In this document: one piece after another, positions 590 through 8,907 of the stretch | Numbering within the stretch: position 1 is the first letter of the stretch | How the letters are laid out: the number at the start of each line of letters is the position of its first letter | Assembly (NCBI GenBank): GCA_027490995.1 | Contig: JAIXWY010000011.1 | Location: forward strand, 868,001 to 932,000 | Source: Opitutaceae bacterium | Lineage (GTDB): Bacteria; Verrucomicrobiota; Verrucomicrobiia; Opitutales; Opitutaceae | Direction of reading: 5' to 3' | DNA: 64,000 nt | Position numbers and translations under genes: made by a program | Notes under the pieces: generated by a model | Database searches by the model: none | Told to the model about the DNA's origin: nothing | Seen by the model: the letters and a program-made list of their open reading frames with translations, nothing else

Positions 590-1903
590 ATGACCCGCTG
601 CCTTCTGTCCTACTGCTCGCTCCTATCCATTGCCCTCGGCCTATTCCCGAGCCATCTGCAGGGCCAGACCGAAAGGTGGTGGCGTGGCAACCTCCACACC
701 CACTCGCTGTGGAGTGACGGCGATGACTATCCGGAGATGATCGCCGACTGGTACAAGAGCCAGGGCTACCACTTTCTCGCCTTCTCCGATCATGACATTC
801 TGCAGGAGGGCCAACGCTGGCTGCCGCTCCAAGGCGGCGTCTCTTTCGCAGGTAGCGTCACGCTCCGCGGTGGCGGTGAGGTACTCAACCAGTACCTCCA
901 GCGCTTCGGGCCGCAGTGGGTCGAGCAGCGCCGCATTAATGGCCAGCACGAGGTCCGATTAAAGCCTCTCTCCGAATTCCGCACGCTCTTCGAAGAGCCT
1001 GGGCGGTTCCTGCTCCTCCCTGGAATCGAGGTGAGCCATCGCGAGGTCGTCGCACCCGACGGCACCAAGACGCCAGCCACGGTTCACCTGAACGTGATCA
1101 ACATCCGCGACGTCGATCCGAGGCCGAGCGGGCAGACGGTTCTGGAACTACTGCAGCGGACCGTTGATGCCGCGCTCGCCCAGCGGGAACGCACCGGACA
1201 GGCCATGTTTCCCCACGTCAACCATCCCAACTTCCGCTGGGGCCTCACCCCGGATGATCTCATGCGCGTGCGCGGTCTGCGTTTCTTCGAGGTCTACAAC
1301 GGCCACCCCCAAGTAAACAACGAGGGTGACGCCGACCACCCGTCGACCGAGCGACTCTGGGATCTGGCTTTGACTCATCGCCTCACCGACTTGGGCCTCG
1401 GGATCCTCTATGGGATCGCGACCGACGATTCCCATCACTACCACGAGCAGGGCATCGGTCGAAGCAACTCCGGACGCGGCTGGGTCATGGTCCGCTCCTC
1501 TCACCTGACGCCGGAGTTCCTGGTCCGCGCCATGGAAGCCGGGGACTTTTACGGCAGCTCAGGTGTCACGCTCACCGATGTCCGTCGGCCCGCCGGGCGG
1601 CTCGAGATCGAGATCGCCGGAGAGCCCGGAGTCTTGTACGAAACCCGTTTCATCGGCACCCGCCTACGCACTCCAGGCCAAGTCGAAGCCGCTGAGCTCG
1701 GCGTGGAACTGGCTCGATCGGCTGAGCTCCGCAGCAGCTACGCCCTACGGCCGGATGATCTCTACGTCAGAGCAGTAATCACCGCCTCACGCCACCACCC
1801 CAACGGAAGCATCGCCAACGAATGGGAGCGAGCGTGGACCCAACCCGTCGTCAACGAGCAGCACGCCGCCCTCCGGACCAAGGCCGAAGCGCCCCTGCCC
1901 TAA
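590..1903 (+). CDS. Secreted PHP-domain metal-dependent phosphoesterase-like protein
   Basis: 437 aa. I chose the ATG at 590 over an in-frame TTG at 545 because it begins directly with a signal peptide (MTRCLLSYCS..., hydrophobic core, cut near SHLQGQ). The mature N-terminus carries the PHP metal motif NLHTHS (H36, H38) followed by WSDGDDYPE and FSDHD (residues 65-69). Later motifs are LPGIEVSH (around 147-154), HVNHPNF (around 211) and ATDDSHHYH (around 285), together the usual set of metal-binding His/Asp/Glu residues. PHP enzymes hydrolyse phosphoesters; secreted members of this type are common near carbohydrate genes, and the substrate is unknown. The C-terminal ~100 residues form a beta-rich extension. 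The TAA stop overlaps the stop of the convergent permease gene. Confidence 0.8.
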   Translation: MTRCLLSYCSLLSIALGLFPSHLQGQTERWWRGNLHTHSLWSDGDDYPEMIADWYKSQGYHFLAFSDHDILQEGQRWLPLQGGVSFAGSVTLRGGGEVLNQYLQRFGPQWVEQRRINGQHEVRLKPLSEFRTLFEEPGRFLLLPGIEVSHREVVAPDGTKTPATVHLNVINIRDVDPRPSGQTVLELLQRTVDAALAQRERTGQAMFPHVNHPNFRWGLTPDDLMRVRGLRFFEVYNGHPQVNNEGDADHPSTERLWDLALTHRLTDLGLGILYGIATDDSHHYHEQGIGRSNSGRGWVMVRSSHLTPEFLVRAMEAGDFYGSSGVTLTDVRRPAGRLEIEIAGEPGVLYETRFIGTRLRTPGQVEAAELGVELARSAELRSSYALRPDDLYVRAVITASRHHPNGSIANEWERAWTQPVVNEQHAALRTKAEAPLP

Positions 1904-2859
1904 GCGGAACGCCCCCGGCGATACTGATCGAGCGTGACGGCGGCGACGATGATCCCGCCCGTGACGATCTCCTGCACCCAGTTCGACATTTCCAACTTGG
2001 TGCAGCCATTGTTGACGACCGTCATAATCAACGCGCCGATCATCGTTCCGAGGACTGTTCCCCGCCCTCCGGAAAGGCTCGCACCGCCGATTACGACGGC
2101 CGCGATGATGTTTAGCTCGAGCCCCACCGCCGTGGTGGGGTCTCCGCCGGTCAGGTAAGAGAACTGGAGCACTCCGGCCAAACCAGCGAACCCCGCTCCG
2201 ACGGCGTAGATCCAGACCTTGGTACGATCGACCGCGACTCCACACAGCCGCGCGGTGGACTCGTTCGAGCCGATCGCAAAAATGTGCCTTCCAAACCGCG
2301 TGTAGCGAAGCACCCCAGCCACGACCACGGCCATCACGAGCATGATCCACACCCCGCCGGGGAGGAAACGAGAACTGAGCAGCATGAGGTCGTTCAGCCA
2401 CGTCGGTTCAGGATAAATGGGCTGCTCACCCGCCAATCCCTTGGCCGCCCCCCGCAGGATGCCCATCATCCCGAGCGTCACGATGAACGGCATCAGGCGA
2501 AGTCGTGTCACCAGTAGCCCCGAGGCGACGCCGGTCATAACACCGAGGCCAATCGCACCGGCTGCGGCAACCATCGGCGGCGCGCCGGCCTGCAAGAGCA
2601 ACGCGAGCACAACCGCCGACAGAGCGATGATGGAACCGAACGATAAATCGACCCCGCCCGAGATCACAATCAGCGTCATACCGATCGCGCCGATACCGAT
2701 CACCGCGGTCTGCTGCAGCATGATCGCGGAGTTATCCCACGTGACGAAGCGATCGAAGCGCAGGATCGCGAACAGCGCGTAGACCGCGACGAGGGCCAAG
2801 AAAGGGGCCAACGCGCCGAGCACGCGCCGCGCGGAGCCAGAGGAAGAGTCGGTGGACAC
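1900..2859 (-). CDS. ABC transporter permease, ribose/RbsC type
   Basis: 319 aa from a GTG at 2859; an open frame continues 60 codons upstream but is Arg/Ser-rich, unlike a protein, and overlaps the upstream gene. Hydrophobic segments run throughout, with the family landmarks GVDLSFGSIIAL, TRLRLMPFIVTLGMMGILRG, FAIGSNESTARLCG, GGASLSGGRGTVLGTMIGALIMTVVNN and a final helix near VQEIVTGGIIV. This is the BPD_transp_2 family, the inner-membrane channel of sugar importers. The binding protein lies directly upstream at 2939-3907, but no ATPase gene is adjacent, so the ATPase must be encoded elsewhere or shared. The stop codon overlaps the PHP stop (shared bases 1900-1903). Confidence 0.88.
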   Translation of the reverse strand: MSTDSSSGSARRVLGALAPFLALVAVYALFAILRFDRFVTWDNSAIMLQQTAVIGIGAIGMTLIVISGGVDLSFGSIIALSAVVLALLLQAGAPPMVAAAGAIGLGVMTGVASGLLVTRLRLMPFIVTLGMMGILRGAAKGLAGEQPIYPEPTWLNDLMLLSSRFLPGGVWIMLVMAVVVAGVLRYTRFGRHIFAIGSNESTARLCGVAVDRTKVWIYAVGAGFAGLAGVLQFSYLTGGDPTTAVGLELNIIAAVVIGGASLSGGRGTVLGTMIGALIMTVVNNGCTKLEMSNWVQEIVTGGIIVAAVTLDQYRRGRSA

Positions 2860-2938
2860 GATCGAAAGAGCGGAGCCGCTTCTTAAACCCGCAGAGGTCG
2901 AGTCACCTCTCCGGGCACCGCAGCTGCGAGACGCGGAC

Positions 2939-3907
2939 TTACGGCGTCGCGAGAATCGCCTTGGTTTCCGGCGTGTCGATGGTTTCGAGCGTGACCAGGG
3001 CGCACCCCGTGTCGATGCGGGGCTCAACCTTCCCGCCACGCAAATGGGCCACCGCGGCCTTCACGCCCAGGTAGCCCATGCGGGACGGATTCTGAGCCAC
3101 CAGACCATGGATCTCACCGCGACGCAGTGCCTGAAGCAAAGCGGGCGAAGTATCAAAGCCAACGAACGTCTTCTTGCCCGCCAGACCCGTTTGCCGCAAC
3201 GCCAGCAGCATGCCCTGCGTGGTGGACTCATTCGGGCAGAAGATGCCGTCCGCCTCCCGCAGACGGTCGATGAGATTCAACGCCGTATCCTGCGCAAGGC
3301 TCACCGTCGCACCGCCGTAGCGATTCTTCACGGTCACTTCGATCCCCGGGTGCCGGGCAATCGCCGCAAGGAAGCCGGACTCGCGCTCGTCCGTACTGGC
3401 CGAGCCTTCCAAACAACGCAGCAGGACAACCTTGCCTTTGCCACCCAGCCGCCGGGCGAGTTCCTCGCCGCCGATCTCGCCGCCGCGGAAGTTGTCCGTG
3501 GCCACGAGGCTCACAAAATCACGGCCGACCTCGCCGCGCAGCGCCGAGTCGATGATGACCACGGGAATGCCCGCCGCCGTCGCACTACGAACGGGCCCGG
3601 CAAGGGCGGTCGCGTCGAGCGGAGCAAGCACCAACGCGGAGACCTTGGATCCCACGAACTGCTGGACCAAACTGATCTGCTGGGCGCGGTCATCCTCCTT
3701 CATCGGTCCCTTCCAAATGATGGTGACGTCCTCCTCCACCCCAGCCTTACGCGCACCGGCTTCCACGCTCTTCCAGAAGGCATGGGTGGATCCTTTGGGA
3801 ACGACCGCGATCTGGAGCTTCTCGGCGGCAAGGGCCGTCACGGCCGAGCCGGCTAAAGCGACTGCGGAAATCAGGGCGGGAAGGAGCGGACGGATGAAGC
3901 GGCGCAT
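2939..3907 (-). CDS. Sugar-type ABC transporter periplasmic binding protein
   Basis: 322 aa. The start at 3907 gives MRRFIRPLLPALISAVALAG, a clean signal peptide cleaved near TALAAEK; an in-frame ATG 16 codons upstream would bury the signal and reach into the RidA gene. The mature protein follows the type I periplasmic binding fold (Peripla_BP_4, RbsB-like): IAVVPKGSTHAFWKSVEAGA, then DDRAQQISLVQQFV, SALVLAPLDATALAGPV, GIPVVIIDSAL, FVSLVATDNFRGGEIGGEEL and a hinge near GFDTSPALLQAL. It delivers a sugar, or possibly a nucleoside-like ligand, to the permease downstream. Gap to the upstream RidA-like gene is 44 bases and to the permease about 80 bases, consistent with one operon. Ligand unknown. 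Confidence 0.88.
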   Translation of the reverse strand: MRRFIRPLLPALISAVALAGSAVTALAAEKLQIAVVPKGSTHAFWKSVEAGARKAGVEEDVTIIWKGPMKEDDRAQQISLVQQFVGSKVSALVLAPLDATALAGPVRSATAAGIPVVIIDSALRGEVGRDFVSLVATDNFRGGEIGGEELARRLGGKGKVVLLRCLEGSASTDERESGFLAAIARHPGIEVTVKNRYGGATVSLAQDTALNLIDRLREADGIFCPNESTTQGMLLALRQTGLAGKKTFVGFDTSPALLQALRRGEIHGLVAQNPSRMGYLGVKAAVAHLRGGKVEPRIDTGCALVTLETIDTPETKAILATP

Positions 3908-3951
3908 GGGGGTAAGCGAGGATACGAGGAAAGAAGGTGGACGAACGGGAA

Positions 3952-4413
3952 TCAATCCTGCAGCTCGACGACGACCTGAATCTCGGTCGTGGCATTGCGG
4001 GGCAGGCCGCAGACCGCAACCGCGGCCCGGGCATGCCTTCCGGCGTCACCGAACAGTGCGACGAACAAATCGCTCGCACCATTGATCACCGCTGGGCTGT
4101 CGGCAAAACCGCTGATGGCATTGACGTAGCCACTGACGAAGACGATGCGGCGGATCTTCTCAAGGGAACCGACGGCAGCCTTCACGTTCGTCAACGTGGC
4201 AAGAGCGCAGATCCGGGCCGACTCATAACCGGATTGCGTCGTCTGCTCCCGTCCCACCTGACCGGTGTGCGTCAACTCGCCGTTGTAGGCACTGATGGTG
4301 CCGGCGCAGTACAACAGATTACCGGTCCGAACGGTGGGCACATAGTTCCCGGCCGCGGCCGGCGGGTTAGGCAGCGCCAGTCCCATTTCCTTAAGCTTGT
4401 CCTCAATCGTCAT
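3952..4413 (-). CDS. RidA/YjgF-family protein (UK114-like subgroup)
   Basis: 153 aa from the ATG at 4413. The opening MTIEDKLKEMGLALPNPP and the stretch NYVPTVRTGNLLYCAGT match the ~150-residue subgroup of the RidA (YjgF/YER057c/UK114) family rather than the short 128-residue RidA. The Arg that binds the carboxylate in active RidA deaminases seems present in HARAAVAV. RidA proteins hydrolyse reactive enamine/imine intermediates or act in small-molecule breakdown (RutC belongs to this family). It heads the operon with the sugar-type binding protein and permease, and is divergent from the amidase with 96 bases between starts. The context suggests a catabolic role, but the reaction is not known. 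Confidence 0.87.
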   Translation of the reverse strand: MTIEDKLKEMGLALPNPPAAAGNYVPTVRTGNLLYCAGTISAYNGELTHTGQVGREQTTQSGYESARICALATLTNVKAAVGSLEKIRRIVFVSGYVNAISGFADSPAVINGASDLFVALFGDAGRHARAAVAVCGLPRNATTEIQVVVELQD

Positions 4414-4509
4414 GATGGCGCGAGCTTCGGAGCCGTCCGAAAAGGACGCAAAGCGATTCGGCGCGGAACCCGGTTGCGCCACGCCCGCTCTCCGGCGAGT
4501 CTGGCGTCG

Positions 4510-5784
4510 ATGAACCTCGCCGCTTGGCAGGACCTCGCCCACCGCGATCCCTTCGAGGCCGCCTCCACCCTGCTCCAACGCCTGAGCGCCCTTCCGCCCG
4601 CGCAGCGGCGCGCGATCGTTTCATGGCAACTCGACGCCGCCGCACTCGCGGCGGCCTTCGCCCGCCAGACCGCGCGGCCCGGCCCGCTCTCCGGCGTTCC
4701 CTACTTTGCCAAGGATCTGTTTCCCGTGCGCGGGGTTCCCCTGCATGCCGGCAGCGGATTCCTCGCGGAGATCCGGCCGGTTCCGACTCAGGATTCGGCC
4801 CTGATCACCGATCTCGCGGGATGCGGAGCGGTGCTGACCGGGACCGCTCACTTACATGAGTTCGCCTATGGCCTGACCGGCGATAATCCGCATTGGGGCA
4901 ACGTCGACATCCCCGGGAAGCCTGGCCGCACTCCGGGCGGCTCAAGCAGCGGCTCGGCGGCCTTGGTGGCAGCGGGAGTGGTTCCCCTGGCACTCGGCAC
5001 TGACACCGGAGGCTCGGTCCGCGTGCCGGCCGCCTACTGCGGCCTCTTCGGCTTCCGGACCACGCCCGGGGCACGCTGGATCTCGGACGCCTTCCCGCTG
5101 GCCCCCGGCTTCGATACCGCCGGCTGGTTCACCCGGAGCGCAGAGGACATGCTTCAGGTAAAGACCGCCCTGCTCGGAGCAGCCCCGACTGAGCGCCTGC
5201 CCCGAGGCGTCTACCTTGGTTTTGAGGGCTGGGCCGAGGCAGACCCCGGCATCGCCGCGGCGGTCGATGCCGCCGCGAGGCGCTTCGCTCCCGCTGCCGA
5301 CGCCGCCACCCGCGAACAACTCATCCGCGGCTTCGTTGGATCCACCGACACCTACGCCACCCTCCAAAGCATCGAAGCCTACGGCGTCCATGCCGACTGG
5401 CTCGACCGCTACCGAGATCGCTACGGCAGCGAAGTCTGGCAGCGGCTCGACCGCGGACGCCGCTGGACCGATGCCGAACGCGACCAGGCACTCGTCAAGC
5501 AGACGACGCTCCGTCTCCTGTGGACCTCGTTTTTTCTCACCTACGATTATCTCGTCTTACCCGCCACGCCCTTCGCGGCGCCCCTGCCTGAGCAGCGGAC
5601 GGTCGCAAATCGTCAACGCATTCTCACCCTGACCACGCCCGCCAGCGTGGGTGGACTGCCCGTCCTCACCGTTCCCGTGCCGCTCCCAGACGGGCTATCG
5701 ACGGGACTCCAGATCATCGTCAACCACCCCGGCAGCCCGGTGATTGACTGGGCCCTCCGACAGGCTGGCGCGGAACCACGATGA
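4510..5784 (+). CDS. Amidase (amidase-signature family)
   Basis: 424 aa from the ATG at 4510. The Ser-cisSer-Lys triad is visible: Lys68 in PYFAKDLFPV, cis-Ser145 in PGGSSSGSAA, and nucleophile Ser169 in GTDTGGSVR, with the usual spacing. The 424-residue length is at the short end of the family (often 450-500), and the C-terminal half is compact. No signal peptide, so cytoplasmic. Members hydrolyse amides ranging from allophanate and biuret to acyl amides and Glu-tRNA substrates; the absence of GatB/GatC neighbours argues against GatA. It is followed after 77 bases by the GCHII-like gene on the same strand and is divergent from the RidA-like gene, so a joint role in breaking down a nitrogen compound is possible (inference). 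Confidence 0.88.
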   Translation: MNLAAWQDLAHRDPFEAASTLLQRLSALPPAQRRAIVSWQLDAAALAAAFARQTARPGPLSGVPYFAKDLFPVRGVPLHAGSGFLAEIRPVPTQDSALITDLAGCGAVLTGTAHLHEFAYGLTGDNPHWGNVDIPGKPGRTPGGSSSGSAALVAAGVVPLALGTDTGGSVRVPAAYCGLFGFRTTPGARWISDAFPLAPGFDTAGWFTRSAEDMLQVKTALLGAAPTERLPRGVYLGFEGWAEADPGIAAAVDAAARRFAPAADAATREQLIRGFVGSTDTYATLQSIEAYGVHADWLDRYRDRYGSEVWQRLDRGRRWTDAERDQALVKQTTLRLLWTSFFLTYDYLVLPATPFAAPLPEQRTVANRQRILTLTTPASVGGLPVLTVPVPLPDGLSTGLQIIVNHPGSPVIDWALRQAGAEPR

Positions 5785-5861: not shown

Positions 5862-7457
5862 ATGCCGTCTTCGCCTACTCCGGCTTCCCCCTCTCCGTCT
5901 CCCGTTCCCCGCCCACTGTGGGGCAACGAGGAGTTCACGGCATTGGTCGAGCGGCTCCAACACAAAGGGGGCGCAGCACTCGGTCCCCTGAGTCCAGGGG
6001 ACCATCCCCTTTACGGCCACACCCTGTTCATCGCCTCCTGCGATTTGGATACGCGCTACGGACCCTTCCGGGCCCACGTCTTTCAGGACCTGATTGACCG
6101 GCACTACGTGCTCGCTCTCGCCCACGGGGATATCGCAACGGCCCGGACCCTCTACACCCGACTCCACTCCTCCTGCGTTTCCAGCGAGACCCTGCGAGGC
6201 TGTGATTGCGACTGCGTTGAACAGCTAGACGGCGCGTTCCGCGTCATCGCCGAGAAGGGGCATGGCATCATCTTCTATCTGATGCAGGAAGGTCGCGGCG
6301 TCGGTTATGTCGGCAAGGCCCGCGACCGGATGCTCGTCCAGGCCTCGCTTGACCAGATCTCGACGTTCGCCGCGTACACGGCGCTCGGGCTTCGGAAAGA
6401 TCACCGTAACTACGACAACATCGCGCAGATCTGCCACCTCCTGGGCATCCAGGCATCGTGGATCGTGCTCACGAACAACCCGGACAAGGTGGAAGCCCTC
6501 CGCGAGCAGGGGCTGACCGTGGCCGGCACCGAGCCACTGGAGTGCGAACCGTCGCCCTACAACCTTGCCTACCTCACGTCGAAGGCGGCGGGAGGGCACC
6601 GTTTGCGCCGGCCAGCGGCGACCCAAGTCAGACGCGCCTCGCCGCCGGAGCCGGTCACGCCATTCAAGCCGCACGCCCTCCCGGAGGCCCAGCGTTTCAT
6701 CGCGACGGCGAGCTATTTCCTGCCGGTTCGGCCGGTGGACCATGAGGTGGTGGTCGCCGCGGGAGACCTTGAAGCCTCGCAACGGGACGGATCGCTTGAG
6801 CGCGCGATGTCCGGGCCGAGACCGCTCGTGCTCGGCCACCGCGCCATTCGCGGCCATCGCCACCTTGTGCGGGTGGATCCCGAGGCATTAGCCCGCCGCT
6901 CGCGCGGGGTCGCCAACGAGACGCTGCTCGCAGCGTTGACCACGCCCTACTGGTTTCGCGTGCATGTCTATTACGACATCGTTTCGAGTCAGGAGTTCGT
7001 GGTGCTCACGTACGGACAGACCCACGCGGGCGACCACCCCATCGTGCATCTTCACTCCGAGACCCTCTTCGAGCGATTTCCACTCCGGACGGAAGACCGA
7101 TGCGATCCCTTCAGCGCAGCCGTGAAGGAGATTGTGGCGTATGGATCCGGAGCGATCCACCTCGTGCACCATACCGGATCCGGCGGGGGCTTTGGCATTC
7201 ACGCATCGGAGACGATGCTTCAGCAATCCGGACAGGCCACGTCAGCAGCGGCAGCACGGGAGTCGCTCGGCGTCGGACGGGGTCCGGAAGAAACCGCGAC
7301 CGCGCTTCGGTTGCTTCGCCATCACATCCCAAGCGGCCACGTGCAGATGCTGGTTCCAGCGGGCGAAAGCCCTGAACGGCGCCGCACTGTGGAAGCGGTG
7401 CTCGCGGCGCAAGGATTCACGGTGCACGCCTGGGTGCCACTCGGAGCGGCGCCCTGA
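5862..7457 (+). CDS. Two-domain GTP cyclohydrolase II-like protein with altered active site
   Basis: 531 aa. Residues ~50-250 align with RibA (GTP cyclohydrolase II): zinc cysteines C105, C116 and C118 in the HSSC...CDCDC motif, QEGRGVGY, D180/R182 equivalent to E. coli D126/R128, and TNNPDKVEALREQG. The residue equivalent to the essential Tyr105 of E. coli is Arg156. Residues ~355-450 look like a second, degenerate copy: VVLTYGQ..., HLHSETLFERF, RCDPFSAA and IVAYGSGAIHLVHHTGSGGGFG follow the same order, but two of the three zinc Cys are lost (T401, P416; only C414 kept). No RibB or other rib gene is nearby. It is probably not the riboflavin enzyme. The product may be a formamidopyrimidine or something unrelated. 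The N-terminal ~20 residues are Pro/Ser-rich. The ATG at 5862 has no obvious ribosome site. Confidence 0.82.
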   Translation: MPSSPTPASPSPSPVPRPLWGNEEFTALVERLQHKGGAALGPLSPGDHPLYGHTLFIASCDLDTRYGPFRAHVFQDLIDRHYVLALAHGDIATARTLYTRLHSSCVSSETLRGCDCDCVEQLDGAFRVIAEKGHGIIFYLMQEGRGVGYVGKARDRMLVQASLDQISTFAAYTALGLRKDHRNYDNIAQICHLLGIQASWIVLTNNPDKVEALREQGLTVAGTEPLECEPSPYNLAYLTSKAAGGHRLRRPAATQVRRASPPEPVTPFKPHALPEAQRFIATASYFLPVRPVDHEVVVAAGDLEASQRDGSLERAMSGPRPLVLGHRAIRGHRHLVRVDPEALARRSRGVANETLLAALTTPYWFRVHVYYDIVSSQEFVVLTYGQTHAGDHPIVHLHSETLFERFPLRTEDRCDPFSAAVKEIVAYGSGAIHLVHHTGSGGGFGIHASETMLQQSGQATSAAAARESLGVGRGPEETATALRLLRHHIPSGHVQMLVPAGESPERRRTVEAVLAAQGFTVHAWVPLGAAP

Positions 7458-7486: not shown

Positions 7487-8782
7487 TTAGGCAGCGTCCT
7501 GACGCGGCTCGCTCTTCGGATGGCGACGCAGTCGGGGACGGCGTGTGCCGGCCACCGCAGCGGCGTCGATGATCACCTCGGCGATGTCGTCGCGCTGCGG
7601 CAGGTCGAACATCACCTCGAGCATCAGGTTCTCCATGATCGCCCGCAACGCCCGCGCGCCCGTCTTGAGAGTGATGGCCTTCCGGGCAATCGCCCGCACC
7701 GCATCGGGCGTAAACCGCAGCCGCACTCCATCCATCGCGAACAGCTTGGAGTACTGTTTGACGAAGGCGTTCTTGGTCCGCTGCAGGATGTGGACGAGAT
7801 CATCCTCAGAGAGATGATCCAACACGGACACAATGGGGAGCCGGCCGATGAACTCGGGGATCATCCCGAAACGAATCAAGTCCTCGGGCTCCAGTTCGCG
7901 CATCAAGTCCTCGGGCCGCAGGACCGAATCCCGGCGCCGGGCCGCCGACGAGAATCCGAGCCCTCCCTGCCCGAGGCGCCGCTGTACCAACCCGTCGAGC
8001 CCCACGAAGGCGCCGCCGCAAATGAACAGGATGTTCTGCGTGTTGATCTGGACGTACTCCTGATTGGGATGCTTGCGGCCGCCTTGCGGCGGGACGTTGC
8101 ACACCGTGCCCTCGAGAATCTTAAGCAGGGCCTGCTGCACGCCTTCTCCCGACACATCACGCGTGATCGAAACGTTCTCGGTCTTCCGGCCGATCTTATC
8201 GATCTCGTCGATGTAGATGATTCCGCACTCCGCGCGTTTCACATCATAGTTGGCGGACTGCAGCAAACGGAGCACGACATTCTCCACGTCCTCGCCCACA
8301 TAGCCCGCCTCGGTCAGCGTGGTGGCATCGGAAATCGCAAAGGGCACGTCGAGGATTCGGGCCAGCGAACGGGCGAGCAGCGTCTTGCCTGAGCCGGTCG
8401 GACCGACCAGAAGAATGTTACTCTTCTCGACCTCCACGCCGTCAAACTCGGGAGACAGCGCCGGCGAGTCTTTCACGGTCTGGCCGGAATCGAACATCAG
8501 CCGCTTGTAATGATTGTAGACAGCGACTGAGAGAACCTTCTTGGCGTGCTCCTGACCAATCACGTGCTCATCGAGCGTCCGCTTGATTTCCGAAGGCTTA
8601 ACCAACCGAAAATCAGGCTTGGTCTCGCCCGCGGGCTGACGCACCTCGCGGTCGATGATCGTCTTGCAGACGTTTACACACGAGTCGCAGATGTAGACGC
8701 CAGGCCCGGCAATGATCTTCTTCACCTCCGACTGCGACTTGCCGCAGAAGGAGCAGAGCGTCATGCGGGAAGACTTGGCCAT
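7487..8782 (-). CDS. clpX: ATP-dependent Clp protease ATP-binding subunit ClpX
   Basis: 431 aa from the ATG at 8782; a longer open frame upstream has no ClpX homology. The N-terminal zinc-binding domain has C10, C13, C32 and C35 (CSFC ... CDSC). The AAA+ core has Walker A GPTGSGKT, Walker [10 protein letters not shown], pore loop GYVGEDVE, and the sensor region [15 protein letters not shown]; the C-terminal small domain ends with a basic tail. ClpX unfolds tagged proteins and feeds them to ClpP. It is the last gene of tig-clpP-clpX, separated from clpP by 177 bases that include a strong hairpin, so it may also have its own promoter. Convergent with the GCHII-like gene, 29 bases between stops. 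Confidence 0.97.
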
Positions 8783-8907
8783 GGCAAAAAGAGTGAGAAG
8801 ATCGGCGGTGACGTGTCGAGGGCGAACACCCTCTCTCATCGGCACGCCAGAGGGTGGACTGAGGCGAGGAGTCGTTCAGCGACCGACACCCCATCTAGGG
8901 TAATTCA

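Follow-up and report, generated by a model that had tools for sequence, protein, structure and literature searches.

A tandem GCHII-like protein and its SIS-fold partner in the Opitutales suggest possible purine ring opening at the nucleotide level

The window analyzed here, the whole 64,000-nucleotide stretch of an Opitutaceae genome, encodes a protein with two GCHII-like domains that belongs to an undescribed family of such proteins, with its center in the Opitutales (Verrucomicrobiota). In many members, the gene is paired with a gene for an SIS-fold protein, and genes of purine metabolism are enriched around the tandem gene. Our tentative reading, which takes its substrate, product, and order of steps from analogy, is that the two-domain protein and its SIS partner could together open the purine ring on the nucleotide, in a manner resembling the URC pathway for uracil. 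The tandem gene and its parts lie in the window as follows.

5862 to 7457, plus strand: tandem GCHII-like protein P0001, 531 amino acids (open reading frame and translation, two PF00925 matches, alignment A1)
6021 to 6611, plus strand: domain 1 (residues 54 to 250), GCHII fold that retains its zinc cysteines and the residues of the phosphate site
6174 to 6176, plus strand: Cys105 (E. coli Cys54 site), zinc ligand, in 53/53 sequences
6207 to 6215, plus strand: Cys116-Asp-Cys118 (E. coli Cys65 and Cys67 sites), zinc ligands, each Cys in 53/53 sequences
6327 to 6329, plus strand: Arg156 at the E. coli Tyr105 site, in 53/53 sequences and opposite Y105 of 2bz0
6645 to 6926, plus strand: middle segment (residues 262 to 355), conserved across family members, without a Pfam match
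6939 to 7442, plus strand: domain 2 (residues 360 to 527), zinc-less second GCHII-like copy that has eroded in the window's lineage

The tandem architecture had been proposed in a first-pass annotation made from the sequence, and profile searches agree with it. The open reading frame starts with ATG, and a Pfam scan of its product returned GTP_cyclohydro2 (PF00925) twice and no other family, with a whole-protein E value of 5.4e-49 and 166.4 bits against the curated cutoff of 23.3. In the genome search, the two stretches gave E values of 5.8e-40 (domain 1) and 4.4e-8 (domain 2). The protein also passes the broader model NF001591 (156.7 bits; cutoff, 148) and misses the equivalog-domain model TIGR00505 (136.7 bits; cutoff, 205.85). 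The likeness of the first half to E. coli RibA extends to predicted structure: in an AlphaFold2 model built from 53 sequences (mean pLDDT 83.8; pTM 0.84), residues 52 to 228 match GCHII with a Z score of 19.7 and an rmsd of 1.8 Å over 172 residues.

The residues of domain 1 were compared in alignment A1, which holds the window's protein and those of 52 of the 80 loci described below (53 sequences). The zinc triad C105/C116/C118 and the D180/R182 pair (C54, C65, C67, D126, and R128 in E. coli), already read as intact in the window, proved invariant among all 53 homologues, as are R100, T204, and K209 (E. coli R49, T149, and K154), which we take to be phosphate sites. The replacement of Tyr105 by Arg156 was likewise recovered in a profile alignment with E. 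coli GCHII (2bz0), and Arg occupies this position in 53/53 sequences. The site of E. coli Asn118 is an invariant Tyr172, which might substitute for Tyr105, and the Glu116 site is variable (Q in 22 sequences, A in 13, E in 10, and D in 8). Apart from the zinc cysteines and Arg128, the residue roles referred to here are general background on E. coli GCHII. The roles of those cysteines and of Arg128 are given in sections of PMC10366380.

The C-terminal half had been described as a partial second copy that had lost two zinc cysteines. The copy is there, but it is not partial: residues 363 to 526 make up the whole fold and, in the predicted structure, nearly repeat the order of strands and helices in residues 54 to 223. 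The count of lost cysteines also has to be revised, as all three zinc positions are gone from domain 2 throughout the family; C414, the sole Cys at these positions in the window's protein, is present in 1/53 sequences. Because profile A3, which covers the C-terminal half, also matches single GCHII domains across the phylum, many with E values near 1e-16, we regard domain 2 as a genuine second copy. Its kinship with GCHII follows from the PF00925 and A3 matches and the order of its elements; in structure searches with the whole model, domain 1 filled the list of matches, and no clear GCHII match to domain 2 appeared among those listed. Ten motif residues (D438, R440, D474, R476, D477, Y478, N499, S500, P501, and K507) are kept in 48 to 51 of the 53 sequences. 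In most members, domain 2 retains motifs that are likely ligand-binding. None of the ten residues remains in the window's own domain 2.

Scanning one genome per species turned up 96 homologous stretches, of which 80 loci, nearly all with Verrucomicrobiota titles, were kept. The tandem gene is present in 18 of 57 relatives, and profile A3 matches at E < 1e-100 in 13 of 240 Verrucomicrobiota genomes, the window's own included. A tree of 62 GCHII domains places 16 domain-1 copies in one group and 16 domain-2 copies in another, with unsure deeper joins and long branches. Several genomes have irregular copies. G014 has two tandem genes (L159 and L160), of which only the copy at C1:2467627 is adjoined by an SIS gene, and G099 has a second, fragmented C-terminal half (L167; G099:C1:482961-483759) in addition to the intact tandem gene in its tandem-SIS-HPRT run near C1:219-221 kb (L166). 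At L020 (G002:C89:3766-5153), the tandem gene and the adjoining SIS gene are in several pieces, through sequencing errors or decay. Bins titled Akkermansia muciniphila (L070, L072, L083, L109, and L122) contain tandem genes much like those of Opitutaceae-titled bins, and the organism labels of these bins are probably loose.

The partner is a 361-residue protein. By script-based gene calling at 80 loci (window included, L083 left out), its gene directly follows the tandem gene on the same strand in 40 loci and occurs in 44 overall. With tblastn, 40 of the 68 loci with room have it no more than 1.2 kb downstream, and no SIS gene was found at the locus in 26/68. Over all 81 loci, tblastn gave counts close to those of the script (in parentheses): SIS 45 (44), permease 27 (27), HPRT 13 (10), and amidase 19 (15). 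In the phylum, the SIS gene was found in 11 of the 13 tandem genomes and in 0 of the 227 others (Fisher P = 2.6e-17, genomes treated as independent; the A3 and SIS searches of 240 genomes are treated as one set, the genomes being the same wherever rows were listed), and in 11/11 genomes the distance between it and the domain-2 match is 12 to 171 bp. It is missing from two tandem genomes, the window's genome and G011. Among the 57 relatives, 12/18 tandem genomes and 0/39 others have the SIS gene, a weak match in G001 (E 1.2e-4) being left out. The six tandem genomes without it are G000 (the window's genome), G003, G004, G011, G019, and G030, with G019 67% and G030 86% complete. Locus records in which the SIS gene is present include L131 and L130, from Coraliomargarita and Cerasicoccus.

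One representative of the SIS protein, scanned at an E value of 0.01, matched no Pfam family, and it matched no NCBIfam model. Profile A2, built from 32 of 42 complete SIS open reading frames, recovered a single PDB chain of the SIS type at the sequence level (E 0.014). In its predicted structure (pLDDT 92.2), the partner adopts a complete SIS fold and aligns best with NagB-II, at an rmsd of 2.8 Å over 310 residues and 12% identity. We found no report of the tandem-SIS pair among the papers that our searches of the open PMC library listed.

Purine genes concentrate near the tandem gene, making up 55 of 386 neighbors within three genes versus 8 of 300 at five or more genes away (P = 4.3e-8), and the enrichment holds when the permease is set aside (31/386 versus 7/300; P = 0.0012). 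A recognized purine gene occurs in only 39 of the 80 loci. By tblastn, 22 of the 69 loci with room have a GhxP-like permease gene on the tandem gene's strand, no more than 3 kb upstream of it. Neighbor clusters were named from representatives, and by these names the 80 loci include adenosine deaminase (12), purine nucleoside permease (11), HPRT-like protein (10), adenine deaminase (7), RidA (16), amidase (15), TonB receptor (15), DUF3891 (10), chlorohydrolase-like protein (7), phosphorylase (5), and creatininase (4). Three loci have another Xan_ur_permease cluster (c36, of which one representative was scanned). Outside the 80-locus count, creatininase-family genes are also found in L164, L166, and L173. 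Formamidase-family genes are found in L164 and L132. Compact tandem-SIS-HPRT runs recur, for example, in L078, L084, L099, L102, and L103. A DUF3891 gene is frequently found immediately upstream of the permease gene or the tandem gene (L078, L079, L084, L091, and L166). In L099, L102, and L103, a TonB receptor gene and a purine nucleoside permease gene adjoin the tandem gene, which suggests an outer-membrane nucleoside uptake locus.

The typing of these neighbors bears on whether the substrate could be a pyrimidine nucleotide, as for the UTP cyclohydrolase of the URC pathway. Domain 1 does match UTP cyclohydrolase 7ej3/7eev (profile E 4.6e-6; fold Z 14.8), and in the HMMER alignment the ARKR of UTP cyclohydrolase stands opposite the family's ARDR, a placement that is unsure given a nearby gap. 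However, RibA is a far better match to domain 1 (E 6.8e-42; Z 19.7). Within the main cluster, each of the 27 permeases is nearest to E. coli GhxP/GhxQ, that is, of the guanine/hypoxanthine type, with UraA, XanQ, and UacT at noise level, and three phosphoribosyltransferases scanned with NCBIfam scored best with HPRT models, far below the cutoffs. A pyrimidine substrate therefore seems to us highly improbable. URC genes typically neighbor uracil phosphoribosyltransferase and URC4. Membership of the tandem protein in URC1 was considered and rejected, with 19.2 bits against a cutoff of 403 for NF005536, presumably the URC1-like model.

The purine genes might alternatively supply the substrate for a tandem protein that makes a precursor of a specialized metabolite or modified base, or that has a regulatory role. 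GCHII paralogues occur in such pathways, and loss of the domain-2 zinc site in all 53 aligned members also speaks for this alternative. Against this, the recurrent cluster representatives scanned have the character of uptake, deamination, nucleoside cleavage, and amide hydrolysis, with no recurrent set of biosynthetic tailoring genes among them, and we consider this role rather improbable.

A role in riboflavin synthesis is a further alternative. The first-pass annotation had pointed to a pathway other than riboflavin and had asked whether a canonical RibA exists elsewhere in the genome. All PF00925 matches in the window's genome come from the tandem gene, and relatives mostly lack RibA regardless. 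Besides the tandem genes, 50 separate PF00925 domains occur in 49 of the 57 genomes, and the zinc triad is missing in 48 (47 lack all three cysteines and one keeps one), so that most of these genomes have no canonical RibA, whether or not they carry the tandem gene. The fusion gene of the relatives was for this reason rejected as a canonical RibBA. Canonical zinc-type separate domains are limited to G023 and one of the two in G039. The separate domains lie at loci L035 to L061, L181 to L184, and L190 to L208; the seven zinc-less ones that we read through are all RibB fusions, and from their sequences the zinc-less domains of the relatives fit RibBX, a DHBP synthase fusion that parts of PMC10012899 describe as without GCHII activity. 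Most Opitutales relatives examined thus have no zinc GCHII although other riboflavin genes are kept, with RibH in 51 of 57 genomes. Since the lack of zinc GCHII is a trait of the clade, its absence alone neither makes the tandem gene the riboflavin enzyme nor excludes it from that role.

The window's genome (G000) may owe its lack of a separate domain to the assembly. The stretch of G003 that carries ribBX, ribH, nusB, and an SRP54-type GTPase gene has no DNA match in G000, a search that strongly diverged copies would escape. The flank of the G003 ribBX region does match G000, at C1:119779-122203, and because these matches stop 3.6 kb from the contig end, ribBX and ribH of the window's genome probably fell into a gap in the assembly close to where contig C1 ends. 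Locus L188 is this flank region, near 119779-125783 on the same contig.

If the tandem protein were the clade's riboflavin enzyme, domain 1 would open GTP fully or only as far as a formamido intermediate deformylated by a BrbF-like formamidase. In S. meliloti and B. abortus, riboflavin is made with the help of BrbF, a formamidase first annotated as a creatininase (PMC9478397), and the same paper calls the cyclohydrolase that would feed BrbF yet to be discovered. Consistent with such a role, none of the 18 tandem genomes has another zinc-type GCHII domain (15 have only a zinc-less domain and 3 have no separate domain), creatininase-family genes occur in 4 of the 80 tandem loci and in the three others named above, and domain 1 remains under strong constraint in the window's lineage despite loss of the SIS gene. 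However, of the 39 relatives that lack the tandem gene, 32 likewise have RibH and a zinc-less domain of RibBX type but no zinc GCHII, which implies that the clade carries out the first step of riboflavin synthesis otherwise or not at all. No rib gene appeared among the neighbor families scanned. The absence of rib neighbors in the window, remarked on from the sequence, also held, with none among the 10 proteins scanned between positions 545 and 13096, the tandem gene aside. A riboflavin role would, moreover, leave the pairing with SIS and purine genes unexplained. We consider it unlikely, and a pathway other than riboflavin stands as the better reading, on the strength of a family-wide pairing that was not visible from the window.

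The window's own locus differs from the fuller ones, lacking both the SIS gene and the purine permease. Its neighbors are as follows.

1900 to 3039, minus strand: BPD_transp_2 ABC permease (Pfam)
3937 to 5784, plus strand: amidase (PF01425), 77 bp upstream of the tandem gene, of a cluster found in 15/80 loci
7487 to 8845, minus strand: clpX-like gene directly after the tandem gene, at the SIS position of many relatives

The amidase, correctly placed beside the tandem gene by the first-pass annotation, has PRK08310 and AtzE as its nearest NCBIfam models, both below cutoff, and its open reading frame probably starts too far 5'. Between the window's gene and that of a 91% identical relative (L062), dN/dS is 0.011 for domain 1, which is 98% identical at a dS of 0.60, and 0.130 for domain 2; in 13 other close pairs, the domain-2 value ranges from 0.000 to 0.079. 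Against the more distant L063, the values are 0.079 for domain 1 and 0.108 for domain 2, where the domain-2 dS is saturated. The contrast with L062 indicates that domain 1 is still under strong selection, whereas domain 2 has been changing fast recently.

These observations could also mean that the gene in the window's lineage is a decaying remnant without present function. The SIS gene and permease are absent, the ten domain-2 motif residues are lost, and the domain-2 dN/dS against L062 lies above those of all 13 comparison pairs. Yet domain 1 has hardly changed in its protein sequence relative to L062, the reading frame is open in three close genomes, and against L063 the two domains differ less, which makes decay of the whole gene distinctly improbable. 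With SIS and permease gone and domain 2 eroding, only the domain-1 reaction likely persists in this lineage. We infer from sequence that the cyclohydrolase reaction may continue here without the downstream step, perhaps for another use.

For the family as a whole, the reading that we tentatively favor is ring opening of a purine nucleotide. The analogies behind the proposed ring opening, formamidopyrimidine product, and removal of ribose phosphate by SIS are with RibA, with UTP cyclohydrolase, and with enzymes of amino-sugar phosphates. In the fullest setting, the GhxP-like permease would import hypoxanthine or guanine, and the HPRT-like protein would convert the imported base into a nucleotide. 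Domain 1, as a putative zinc cyclohydrolase, would then open the imidazole ring of the purine ribonucleotide and, with Arg in place of Tyr105, would probably release a formamidopyrimidine-type ribonucleotide. A GCHII paralogue of S. coelicolor with Met at the Tyr position reportedly stops at the formamidopyrimidine; we found no paper on this paralogue among those listed by a search of the open PMC library. The SIS enzyme may free or isomerize the ribosylamine phosphate, allowing the ribose phosphate to be recycled, and the remaining fragments could be handled by amidases, formamidase, creatininase, and RidA proteins.

It is possible, although more doubtful, that the tandem and SIS proteins are the central part of a so far undescribed route for catabolizing purines as nucleotides, one that bypasses xanthine dehydrogenase and urate and would be a purine counterpart of the URC pathway for uracil. 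A strong match to MoCoBD_2, in a search that pools xanthine dehydrogenase with other molybdenum hydroxylases, was found in 3/17 tandem genomes of the window's family versus 14/20 others (P = 0.0026), and in 3/18 versus 16/39 over all 57 genomes (P = 0.08); the cutoff (best E < 1e-40, reached in 19 genomes) was picked after the scores had been seen, and relatedness is ignored. Were such a route to exist, bacteria of lakes, soils, and guts would break down purines as nucleotides by hydrolysis, with neither molybdenum enzymes nor urate, and the tandem-SIS pair offers a concrete two-gene system for assay.

The tandem protein and its partner can be compared with several known enzymes. E. coli RibA (2bz0), which converts GTP to a diaminopyrimidine, formate, and pyrophosphate, shares the fold of domain 1, the zinc cysteines, the D126/R128 pair, and the R49, T149, and K154 sites. 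The tandem protein differs from it in having Arg for Tyr105, Tyr for Asn118, a variable Glu116 site, and three extra residues in between, as well as a middle segment, a second zinc-less domain, and, in many members, an SIS partner; it carries no RibB fusion. UTP cyclohydrolase (7eev/7ej3), which sections of PMC12507026 cite for the URC pathway, has the shared GCHII-like fold and works on a nucleotide in nucleobase catabolism, but it is far more distant in sequence (18 to 22%). RibBX (for example, 6mnz) contains a zinc-less GCHII-like domain, as does the tandem protein in its domain 2. In RibBX, however, the fusion is to DHBP synthase and no intact GCHII domain is present (PMC10012899), and in this clade RibBX is a separate gene. 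The partner's predicted fold is that of NagB-II (8fdb), GlmS (2j6h), and FrlB (8glr), with Z scores of 28.6, 28.0, and 21.6, all amino-sugar phosphate enzymes with at most 18% identity to it among the matches listed. Unlike these enzymes, the partner is confined, one weak match apart, to those of the searched genomes that carry the tandem gene.
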